Below are positions 150 to 39,831 of a stretch of 39,831 nt of DNA, one piece after another. Position 1 is the stretch's first letter. Every line of letters begins with the position of its first letter. Origin of the DNA: a virus. The position numbers were made by a program, and so were the translations under genes. The notes under the pieces are model-generated. The model was not told where the DNA came from and searched no databases. It saw nothing but the letters and a program-made list of their open reading frames with translations. The stretch is from the IMG/VR virus record IMGVR_UViG_3300021478_000071, positions 1-39,831 of that record, one strand, 5' to 3'.

Positions 150-220
150 CAACCAGCGAAGAATGGGAAATCATCTGCCAAAAATCAACCAACTCCGATC
201 ACTCCGATCACTCCGATTAA
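2..220 (+). CDS. C-terminal end of the RepA-like replicative ATPase (continues from 38835)
   Basis: This is the 3' end of the gene that starts at 38835 and leaves the window at the right edge. Joined across the circle the product is about 355 residues. The visible part encodes a basic helical C-terminal domain (VDQLVDVLGN, then ALLKKASSTNKLTKS) that may bind DNA, and ends in an unusual tail with the repeated tripeptide Asp-His-Ser. That tail is written by three direct copies of the heptamer CTCCGAT, so the gene end overlaps the putative iteron origin. The stop is TAA at 218-220. Frame agreement with the right-hand copy was checked codon by codon. Confidence 0.88.
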   Translation, partial: VDQLVDVLGNRSLKTNAFEKRARQETGMTASTFFALLKKASSTNKLTKSSTSEEWEIICQKSTNSDHSDHSD

Positions 221-330
221 CCCCTAAATCGGAGTACTCCGATGAACTCCGATTTGGGCCCCCCAAGACCCCAAATCGAAGAGTTTAATCGGAGTGGACC
301 CCTCCGGGGTATCGGAGTTCGGCTTCGGAG
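193..330. repeat. Iteron-like cluster of CTCCGAT heptamers, candidate replication origin
   Basis: The heptamer CTCCGAT occurs in direct orientation at 193, 202, 211, 237 and 247 and inverted (ATCGGAG) at 228, 288 and 311, with a degenerate TTCGGAG at 324. The first three copies are spaced exactly 9 bp apart. Copies 228 and 237 form a perfect 16-bp palindrome (228-243). A 9-bp stem (250-258 with 270-278) and a CCCC-TCC-GGGG hairpin (299-309) lie in the same stretch. The cluster sits directly behind the RepA-like helicase gene and ahead of the packaging genes. That is what one expects of an iteron origin bound by a replication initiator, although an operator array is possible. Confidence 0.7.
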
Positions 331-354
331 TAAAGAAAAAAAATCATGAATCTT

Positions 355-393
355 AAAAAAAAGCGCCTCAAGAGTTTCTTTCTCCTGAGGCGC
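355..393 (-). terminator. Leftward rho-independent terminator
   Basis: Read on the minus strand, an 8-bp perfect stem (GCGCCTCA with TGAGGCGC, loop of 15) is followed by eight T residues. It would stop leftward transcription just before it enters the iteron region. No gene on the minus strand is seen to its right, so it may limit antisense or origin transcripts. Confidence 0.6.
381..391 (+). repeat. Dispersed motif TCTCCTGAGGC, intergenic copy
   Basis: One of four exact plus-strand copies of this 11-mer (381, 942, 9385, 11917). Here it forms part of the right arm of the leftward terminator hairpin and is outside any gene. Confidence 0.6.
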
Positions 394-491: not shown

Positions 492-974
492 ATGCCAGGC
501 GGCAGACCTACCGTCCTCACTCCTGAAGTAAAACGCAAAATAGCCGACTGTTTCCTCGTGGCCTTTACCGATGAGCAAACCGCTCATATCGTTGGCATTA
601 ACGAGAAAACTATCCGCCGTATGCGGGCTGGCGAGTATTGTCCAGAAGTAAAAAAAGCCGAGTACGAACGCGAGTTCAAGTACCGCATGAAAATCTGGAA
701 TGCGAAATACTTACCGGCCGGCATTTGCTGGATGTTGGAGCGTAAATATGCCACCCAGTTCGCCAAGCCAGAGGTCCAACTCCAGATCAACACCACAAAC
801 CAGACCGTCAACAACACCCTGATCATTACCGCCGAAGCAGCACATAGTAATGCCGAACGTGTTAAACCTCTCGACGCCAAGATTACTCAGTTGCTCAAAG
901 ACAAGCGACCAGGCCACAACGGCAATGGTGCAAAATCTTCTTCTCCTGAGGCAAAAAACGGTGCCGCCAAATGA
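492..974 (+). CDS. Terminase small subunit (DNA-recognition protein)
   Basis: The product is a 160-residue basic protein that should recognise phage DNA and hand it to the large terminase. It opens with MPGGRPTVLTPEV, typical of phage small terminases, followed by a helix-turn-helix (DEQTAHIVGINEKTIRRMRAG, about residues 28-48). It also has the diagnostic segment WMLERKYATQF, comparable to the W-LER--P--F stretch of this family. I prefer the ATG at 492 over an upstream TTG at 474 because the family usually begins with this MPGGRP sequence. The C-terminus is low-complexity and contains the in-frame dispersed motif (SSSPEAK). It overlaps the next gene by ATGA. No clear Shine-Dalgarno sequence precedes it. 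Confidence 0.75.
   Translation: MPGGRPTVLTPEVKRKIADCFLVAFTDEQTAHIVGINEKTIRRMRAGEYCPEVKKAEYEREFKYRMKIWNAKYLPAGICWMLERKYATQFAKPEVQLQINTTNQTVNNTLIITAEAAHSNAERVKPLDAKITQLLKDKRPGHNGNGAKSSSPEAKNGAAK
937..955 (+). repeat. Dispersed 19-base motif, copy in the small terminase
   Basis: The 19 bases here are identical to 9380-9398 in the scaffold gene (cttcttctcctgaggcaaa). Here they encode SSPEAK near the C-terminus of the small terminase. Confidence 0.65.
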
Positions 975-37856: not shown

Positions 37857-37867
37857 CCTTGAACGCC

Positions 37868-38860
37868 ATGGAAAGCCAGATCGAGCGCATCAAGGCGAAT
37901 CTGTCGGTTTTAGAGGCCTGGCGAATTCTCGATTTACCAGGTGAACCACATATCGGCGACCAACGTTCGCCGTTTCGTAAGGACAAGCGCGCCAGTTTTA
38001 CCATTTTCCGCATCAATGGGGCGACCAAGTGGTTTGACCATGGAATTGGTGAGGGGGGGGACTCAATCGACCTCTGGCGCGCCGCCAGTGGCCTCTCTAG
38101 CGCGAAAGAGGCGATAGTAGACATTCTACAGCGGATCCCCGCCTTAAATGTCTCAGAACCGATCCTGGAGCGTTTCAGCAAACCTGAGCCGATTCTTTGG
38201 CCTGATAATCTCCAGAAGCCGACCGAAGCCGAATGCCGCACTTTAGGGAAACTGCGCGGTTTGTCTCCCGAGGCGTTCTTTCTCGCCGGCCAACTCGGTA
38301 CCCTGCTAACAGGTGATAAACGTGGGCAACGCATTTGGATGACTTGCGACCGTAAAAGGCGAACCGCGGCGATGCGCCGCATAGATGGCCTGAATCTCGA
38401 CCTGATCAACAAGAAGTCAGCCAGTCCAAAAAACGCTAAACGCGATTGGATCATTGGCACACAGACCAGTAATCCGTGCTTGGACGAGTTAAAAAACATC
38501 ATCCTGGTTGAGGGCGAAGGAGACTACTACGCAGCGCTACAACTTTCCATTACAAGCGAAGTCAATTTCAAGGTGCTGGCCATTCTGGGTGCGAACCAGA
38601 AAACTTTTCATGAAGATTGCCAAGCTCAGTTTATCCATGCTTCAGTGTTGATTCTCCCCCACAACGATCGGACTAAAGTTGGCGAGGAAGCTGCAAAAAA
38701 ATGGACCACTTTATCCTATTGTTGGGGTGCCTCAAAAGTCGCCATTCAACCTTTGCCTGTCGTCTGCGACGACCTTAACGATTTTTTGATTCAACGACCT
38801 AGTGACGGCCACAAGCTGTTGAGAGATTTCCACGATGGATCAATCCGGAGACAGAGATGA
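37868..38860 (+). CDS. Primase-like Toprim protein with degenerate zinc finger
   Basis: The product has 330 residues (from ATG 37868; a TTG at 37859 is also in frame). The N-terminus follows the CHC2 zinc-finger layout of DnaG (SPFRKDKRASFTIF, then FDHGIGEGGDSIDLW), but the zinc ligands are replaced (Ser34 for the usual Cys, none in the second half). A Toprim core follows: VEGEGDYYAAL (about 214-224), VLILPHNDRTKVGEE and CDDLNDF. It may prime replication with the RepA-like helicase next to it, whose start it overlaps by 26 bases. Activity despite the lost finger is uncertain. Confidence 0.72.
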   Translation: MESQIERIKANLSVLEAWRILDLPGEPHIGDQRSPFRKDKRASFTIFRINGATKWFDHGIGEGGDSIDLWRAASGLSSAKEAIVDILQRIPALNVSEPILERFSKPEPILWPDNLQKPTEAECRTLGKLRGLSPEAFFLAGQLGTLLTGDKRGQRIWMTCDRKRRTAAMRRIDGLNLDLINKKSASPKNAKRDWIIGTQTSNPCLDELKNIILVEGEGDYYAALQLSITSEVNFKVLAILGANQKTFHEDCQAQFIHASVLILPHNDRTKVGEEAAKKWTTLSYCWGASKVAIQPLPVVCDDLNDFLIQRPSDGHKLLRDFHDGSIRRQR

Positions 38861-39831
38861 CATCCCTGAGACAAAGCATCCAAAATCAGAGTTTCCCCCA
38901 ATTCATGATGGCGATACCATCAAAAGAGAAAACATAGTTTTGCCTAGGCAAATTCTTTCAGGTCTTCTCAGTTTGACCGAGAAACTCGAACTAGCCGGCG
39001 GTTCTAAAAGCTTTAAAACCTGGTCCTTAATCGACATGGGTCTTTCAGTAGCAGCTGGTTATGCCTTCTGGGGACATGTGACATTCCAAACTCATGTCGT
39101 CTATCTCAACATGGAATTGTCCAAACCGTTCTTCGAAGCCCGCCTTTGCGAAGTCGCTGAAGCCCGCCAGATTGCCATTCCATCAATATTCCACGTCATC
39201 CATCTGCGGGGCGAGAAGCTCCATGATCCCTTACGTTGGGGCCGGTTCATCGGATATCTGGAAACCATGCTTCACCGTATCCCTTCGCCTTTGCTCATCA
39301 CTGATCCCATCTACAAAATACTCGGTGGCCGCAGCGAAAACTCAGCCGGCGATATCAATGTCATCATGGATCAGCTCGAAGATCTGGTTCAGCGCACTAA
39401 AGGCGCCAACGCTTTCGGCCATCACTTCACCAAAGGCAACCAGGCCAACAAAGAAAGTATCGACCGCGCCTCAGGCTCAGGAGTGTTTCAACGCGATCCA
39501 GACACACTTCTGAGCATGACTAAACATGAAAACGAGAATTGCTACACCGTCGAGTCAATCGTGCGCAATCATCCTCCAGTCGAGGATTTCGTTCTGGAAT
39601 GGCATTACCCGCTTTTCGTCCGACGCGGTGACCTCGATCCGCAGGACTTGAAGAAACCTAAGAGCCGTGAGCCAAAATATACCGTCGATCAACTCGTTGA
39701 TGTCCTCGGAAATCGCAGCCTGAAAACAAATGCCTTTGAAAAACGCGCCAGGCAAGAAACAGGCATGACTGCCAGCACTTTTTTTGCCCTGCTCAAGAAA
39801 GCTTCAAGTACCAATAAACTTACCAAAAGTT
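38835..39831 (+). CDS. RepA-like hexameric helicase/ATPase (continues at base 2)
   Basis: The visible part (332 residues, finishing at bases 2-220 for a total of about 355) is a RecA-fold ATPase of the RepA/AAA_25 group. Walker A GGSKSFKTW (residues 55-63), YLNMELS (about 90-96), Walker B LLITDPIYKIL (153-163) and the GHHFTKG motif (196-202) are present. Such proteins load or act as the replicative helicase at iteron origins in plasmids of the RSF1010 kind. It follows the primase-like gene and is followed, across the circle, by the CTCCGAT repeats. Confidence 0.78.
   Translation, partial: MDQSGDRDDIPETKHPKSEFPPIHDGDTIKRENIVLPRQILSGLLSLTEKLELAGGSKSFKTWSLIDMGLSVAAGYAFWGHVTFQTHVVYLNMELSKPFFEARLCEVAEARQIAIPSIFHVIHLRGEKLHDPLRWGRFIGYLETMLHRIPSPLLITDPIYKILGGRSENSAGDINVIMDQLEDLVQRTKGANAFGHHFTKGNQANKESIDRASGSGVFQRDPDTLLSMTKHENENCYTVESIVRNHPPVEDFVLEWHYPLFVRRGDLDPQDLKKPKSREPKYTVDQLVDVLGNRSLKTNAFEKRARQETGMTASTFFALLKKASSTNKLTKS
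39683..39831. repeat. Right copy of the terminal direct repeat
   Basis: Matches bases 1-149 with one mismatch (T39809 for C127). Evidence of a closed circular or permuted genome. Confidence 0.93.

Follow-up and report, generated by a model that had tools for sequence, protein, structure and literature searches.

The window, which is the whole stretch of 39,831 nucleotides that was analysed, has a 149-bp terminal overlap, 1-149 recurring as 39683-39831 with a single silent mismatch, at 127, and is thus a circularly permuted genome. Genes for an integrase, a large terminase, a major head protein and recombination together identify it as that of a temperate phage, about 39.7 kb in size. Both repA and the primase gene are located towards the end of the window; it is the circular permutation of the contig that brings the end of repA to position 220. 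The features of the locus are as follows.

37859..38860, plus strand: DnaG-like (Toprim) primase gene, upstream of repA and overlapping its start
38835..39831, plus strand: repA, first part, encoding an AAA_25 (PF13481) RecA-fold helicase of the RSF1010-RepA type; the gene resumes at position 1 past the contig junction
1..220, plus strand: repA, last part, encoding a C-terminal winged helix plus NSDHSDHSD, the tail specified by the iterons
192-199, 201-208 and 210-217, plus strand: three direct ACTCCGAT iterons in 9-bp register, overlapping the last repA codons
228..243, no strand: 16-bp palindrome ATCGGAGTACTCCGAT, in which a minus-orientation iteron (228-235) meets a plus-orientation one (236-243) head to head
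236..295, no strand: central imperfect palindrome, a long potential hairpin bounded by inverted iterons
246..253, plus strand: iteron
275-282: degenerate iteron
288..295, minus strand: iteron
298..310, no strand: small hairpin ACCCC-TCC-GGGGT, between two minus-orientation iterons
311..318, minus strand: iteron
324..331, minus strand: ninth iteron, with one mismatch to ACTCCGAT
331..360, no strand: AT-rich tract (87% AT) adjoining the array, a candidate unwinding element
492..974, plus strand: gene for the terminase small subunit (TerS), neighbour of the array

The sequence-only reading had placed the array directly behind repA and a primase-like gene. The adjacency holds across the permuted junction, but the repA stop at 220 falls within the array and the first three iterons are in the repA frame (...NSDHSDHSD*). 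The primase of a relative, L003, matched the NCBIfam dnaG model at 1e-6, and the window primase, which is 43% identical to it, matched weakly (0.23).

The iteron array of the window

The same reading had counted at least eight exact copies of CTCCGAT/ATCGGAG, three of them in 9-bp register and two forming a 16-bp palindrome. These counts were confirmed: eight exact copies, at 193, 202, 211 (plus), 228 (minus), 237, 247 (plus), 288 and 311 (minus), together span 193-317, the three direct copies are in register and the palindrome at 228-243 is perfect. The heptamer is one base short of the true repeat unit, which is the 8-mer ACTCCGAT. More specifically, three direct copies are followed by the head-to-head pair, a direct copy, a GC-rich centre (39% AT at 254-276) and three inverted copies. 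With 8 copies, the array is the densest 150-bp block of the locus, other blocks holding at most 3. Elsewhere in the window, the heptamer occurred as five scattered single copies, against 5.5 expected by chance for the whole window. GC skew, proposed earlier as a check on an origin, was of no help, as the cumulative skew climbed near-monotonically with gene direction and gave no clear switch at the array.

The nested inverted repeats resemble REP or MITE-like elements, and the array might thus be a host-type dispersed repeat inserted by chance. However, outside the array the word is no commoner in the window than chance predicts, and the corresponding site in each relative carries a word of its own, as described below. 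We give this explanation next to no credence.

Arrays after repA in related phages

Relatives were gathered from IMG/VR phage contigs by large-terminase and RepA-alignment searches. A search with a single RepA sequence found none, whereas an alignment of four RepA sequences did retrieve relatives. Genomes were also sampled around two Verrucomicrobiota MAGs; 43 of 388 and 23 of 286, respectively, contained a RepA homologue (E ≤ 1e-15).

The loci were scanned blindly with a repeat score, defined as the count of the most frequent 7-mer, on either strand, per 150-bp interval. Over 76 Verrucomicrobiota-type loci, the score peaked sharply 0-150 bp past the repA stop (mean z of 1.9 at +50) and was flat elsewhere within 2 kb on either side. 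The block 3' of repA outscored every other block of its locus at 32 of the 76 loci and reached p 0.05 at 35, against about 4 expected; about half of the loci were without a standout signal by this simple measure. At least four copies of one 7-mer were found at 51% of repA 3' ends and at 2% of the 3' ends of 652 other long ORFs. Close relatives with the same genes but without the repeats, named beforehand as the outcome that would count against an origin, were not found.

Eleven further records from Firmicutes and the gut, namely Streptococcus, Enterococcus, Paenibacillus and Bacillus phages and related records, were chosen by protein similarity to the same AAA_25 helicase. In 8 of them, the block 3' of repA was again the most repetitive of its locus, so that the earlier remark that an iteron origin is less usual in temperate phages of this size was only partly right. 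The array was also present where terS is not the neighbour of repA.

A search of related phages for conserved CTCCGAT repeats after repA had been proposed as a check. The array does lie at the same place, but the word is usually a different one. The words following the repA stop include AGTCCGAT (L007, L008), AGTCCAAT (L009), ACTCCA(G) (L006, L014), AGTGCAC (L002, L003), AGTGCA (L013), TTGGCGGT (L004), AGTATCA (L011), GTGCCAA (L022), ACTGCCAA (L021) and GTCTCA (L107, L111, L137), with others besides. The Streptococcus phages L139, L144 and L149 have near-identical RepA tails and a common word, ACGAAAA. In the close relatives L007-L009, the repA stop codon precedes the array, and the three direct copies have their counterparts in non-coding DNA; in L007, these three are likewise spaced by 9 bp, 3' of the repA stop codon. 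Indeed, 9 bp is the commonest spacing between same-orientation copies. Copy orientation was 76% uniform in the first half of the arrays and 47% in the second, in keeping with arrays that begin with direct copies and end with inverted copies.

Several further observations were made on these genomes. In the first 150 bp past the repA stop, L107 and L022 have a common spacer, roughly CAATGTTCACAAGG, and the words GTCTCA and GTGCCA, respectively. On sequence grounds, this is a replacement of iterons inside a kept backbone. In L023, from an Acidobacteriia MAG, the end of repA is a long stretch of 9-base repeats, GAGACTCCT, which stay in frame and encode ETGETGETS..., and this looks as if iterons had been amplified within the gene. 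Finally, the octamer CCTGAGGC occurs 19 times in the window (for example at 384, 945, 5548, 9388 and 36042), against 1.3 expected. It is also common in L002, L003, L004 and L009, and was not found in L006, L007, L008, L013 and L014. In several relatives, genes end in this octamer as CCTGAGGCAAAAAA, directly before the next start codon.

Covariation of the repeat word with the RepA tail

To identify the protein that reads the word, motif similarity was compared with protein similarity in nine phages that also carry related TerS. Motif similarity followed that of the RepA tail, taken as the last 75 residues (rho of 0.78, Mantel p of 0.0002), and not that of the TerS N-terminus (rho of −0.10, p of 0.67). 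Automatically chosen motifs yielded a rho of 0.63 (p of 0.0004) for the RepA tail and of −0.05 (p of 0.59) for TerS. Both the RepA tail and the word pair L006 with L014 and L007 with L008, whereas TerS pairs L006 with L007 and L008 with L014. Similarly, the TerS N-termini of L003 and L004 are 83% identical while their words are unrelated (GTGCAC versus TTGGCGGT). Between the window and L007, the same base change is found at eight homologous copies, converting ACTCCGAT to AGTCCGAT. An identical change in eight copies points to a common reader, as single mutations would not otherwise yield it.

These data bear on whether the array instead serves DNA packaging, as a cos or pac site that the adjacent TerS would bind. 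The small terminase subunit and then the large one lie 3' of the array in the window, TerS is the next recognisable gene there and in several relatives, and TerS proteins carry N-terminal helix-turn-helix domains. However, the match between repeat and terminase small subunit that characterizes a phage cos or pac site was not found in the nine-phage set: motif similarity is unrelated to TerS similarity and follows RepA. Moreover, the Firmicutes arrays persist though small genes and a RusA-type resolvase come after repA, and the 3.5 kb downstream yielded no TerS-like ORF in L010, L011, L013 and L016. A packaging site is therefore highly improbable.

In wider sets, the covariation was less marked. 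Among 39 loci, the effect of the tail beyond ATPase similarity was weak (partial r of 0.11, p of 0.008), and over all 73 loci it was no better than that of an upstream control region (partial r of 0.05). A scan of residues peaked at the recognition helix with a family-wise p of 0.30, not significant after correction. As the array is physically linked to repA, some of the covariation could stem from linkage alone.

Binding of a repressor in place of an initiator had been put forward as an outcome contrary to an origin. The word tracks the C-terminal winged helix of RepA, which fits an initiator. Nevertheless, RepA itself might bind the repeats mainly to regulate its own operon or the late genes, with replication starting elsewhere. 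Such a role would predict the same covariation, and the array does sit between the early replication genes and the late genes. By contrast, regulation would be an odd role for a helicase with a primase gene upstream, and a search of positions 1-1000 for a promoter-like site found none. Further, the spot directly after an initiator gene is a known origin position, in staphylococcal pathogenicity islands (SaPIs) and phage-inducible chromosomal islands (PICIs) according to PMC6092414 and PMC7581432, and likewise in plasmid pRN1, whose origin directly follows the replication gene (PMC4234260). We consider it very unlikely that regulation is the main role of the repeats.

Structure of the array and its surroundings

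Compared with shuffled sequences, the DNA of the window array folded with a z of −10.3 (185-400) or −8.1 (192-331), and its RNA with a z of −9.3 (185-400). Foldability beyond a z of −1.64 was found for 66% of arrays and 4% of control regions. Hairpins comparable to the central palindrome of the window, bounded by iterons, are present in relatives. Many arrays, including those of L010, L022, L107 and L112, also contain a small hairpin with a TTTA-like loop between CCC and GGG, such as ATCCCTTTAGGGTAT, with inverted iterons on its flanks. At 360-396 of the window lies a hairpin, GCGCCTC...GAGGCGC, that resembles an intrinsic terminator for minus-strand transcripts; a similar hairpin occurs in L002 at about 735-767.

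The strong predicted RNA folding and the location at a gene end would suit a segment whose only function is to terminate transcription or to form a structured RNA at the 3' end of repA. The hairpins are, however, without a T-run after them on the plus strand, the sole strong terminator-like site reads the minus strand (396-360), there was no match to an Rfam family, and comparable arrays are absent from other gene ends (2% of 652). Such an element would also leave the direct copies, the changing words and the covariation with a DNA-binding domain unexplained. We judge this explanation extremely unlikely.

The RepA protein

AAA_25 was the sole Pfam family found in RepA, and RSF1010 RepA was the only PDB sequence matched by the family profile. 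A model of the L009 RepA (mean pLDDT of 82) comprised a RecA-fold core and a C-terminal winged helix of three helices and two strands (pLDDT of about 90). Predicted alone, the C-terminal domain had the same secondary-structure elements. The best fold match of the core was RSF1010 RepA (1olo, 1g8y; Z of 20.2), tied within 1 with T7 gp4 and other RecA-fold motors. A fold search with the winged helix alone yielded weak, generic winged-helix matches, none below an E of 0.001. According to the literature, AAA_25 proteins had no known function as of 2022 (PMC8965321).

Discussion

The place of the array in relatives and the covariation of its word with the RepA tail support the earlier proposal of a candidate replication origin. 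We estimate a probability of roughly 85% that the array is a replication origin and that RepA binds its iterons through the C-terminal domain, which loads the helicase. The origin would comprise 192-331 and probably also the AT-rich tract to about 360.

In the proposed mechanism, each ACTCCGAT would be a single site recognised by the winged helix at the C-terminus of RepA, whose gene lies directly upstream. Several RepA subunits would occupy both the direct copies at the repA stop and the inverted ones that surround the central palindrome. Opening of this palindrome, of the AT-rich tract (331-360) or of both would follow; the RecA-fold motors would then close around single-stranded DNA to form hexameric helicases, and primers would be laid by the DnaG-like primase encoded next to repA. 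We infer binding, melting, loading, priming and origin function itself; the steps after binding, that is, opening, hexamer loading and priming, are modelled on the precedents of RSF1010, SaPI and pRN1.

Among plasmids, the IncQ/RSF1010 oriV is served by a RepA helicase, a RepB primase and a RepC initiator. The window resembles this system in having a dedicated primase, iterons and hairpins at the putative origin and a RepA-type RecA-fold helicase core (Z of 20.2). However, RSF1010 has a separate RepC initiator, whereas the predicted iteron-binding domain of the window appears to be fused to the helicase, and the window primase is DnaG-like. The iterons of IncQ/RSF1010 are 20 bp long and directly repeated; those of the window, by contrast, are 8 bp long and in both orientations. 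Classical iteron plasmids have a Rep_3-type initiator and direct iterons of 17-22 bp. The window departs from these as well, with an AAA_25 protein as the candidate initiator and 8-bp units in both orientations.

The window also resembles the rep-ori of SaPIs and PICIs (PMC6092414, PMC7581432). There, the origin with its short iterons is immediately 3' of the helicase-initiator gene, an arrangement found in the window; the iteron sequence differs between elements, and a primase gene lies alongside. In SaPI Rep helicases, the C-terminal domain recognises iterons directly downstream of their gene, according to PMC7581432; in the window, such recognition is predicted from the winged helix and the covariation. 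SaPI-type Rep proteins are DUF927 or D5/Primase_Cterm helicases, whereas the window motor is a RecA-fold AAA_25/RSF1010 RepA, and PICI iterons flank an AT-rich region, whereas the inverted iterons of the window surround a GC-rich palindrome with the AT-rich tract outside. Moreover, SaPIs and PICIs are satellite islands without virion genes of their own, and the window is a full phage that encodes a terminase large subunit and a major head protein. Because of its helicase family, the lack of an AT-rich centre and its being part of a phage, we did not place the window in the SaPI/PICI group. The best explanation is the logic of the SaPI/PICI rep-ori on an unrelated RecA-fold helicase.

Two other systems are similar in part. 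In pRN1 (PMC4234260), a stem-loop origin lies directly 3' of the replication gene, its structure is kept while its sequence varies, and the replication protein has a C-terminal winged helix; unlike the window, pRN1 is without iterons and has an SF3 helicase and an archaeo-eukaryotic primase-polymerase. In the lactococcal phages TP901-1 and Tuc2009, the initiator binds repeats beside or within its own gene, but, as summarised in PMC8965321, this initiator is a replisome organizer rather than a helicase and the repeats are inside its gene. Among the papers searched, none described this type of origin in Verrucomicrobiota.

More broadly, we lean towards the view that AAA_25 proteins of this kind are self-loading initiator helicases, in which a motor of the RSF1010-RepA type is joined to a winged helix reading iterons 3' of its own gene. 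They may define a class of origins, independent of the SaPI/PICI lineage, whose words and winged helices change in step and which occurs in phages and islands from Verrucomicrobiota and Firmicutes at the least. If this is true, AAA_25 would gain a role, and origins could be located by a simple rule in many phages and islands known only from uncultured material. The evolution of origin specificity and of plasmid and phage compatibility could also be studied on dozens of natural pairings of a winged helix with its target word.
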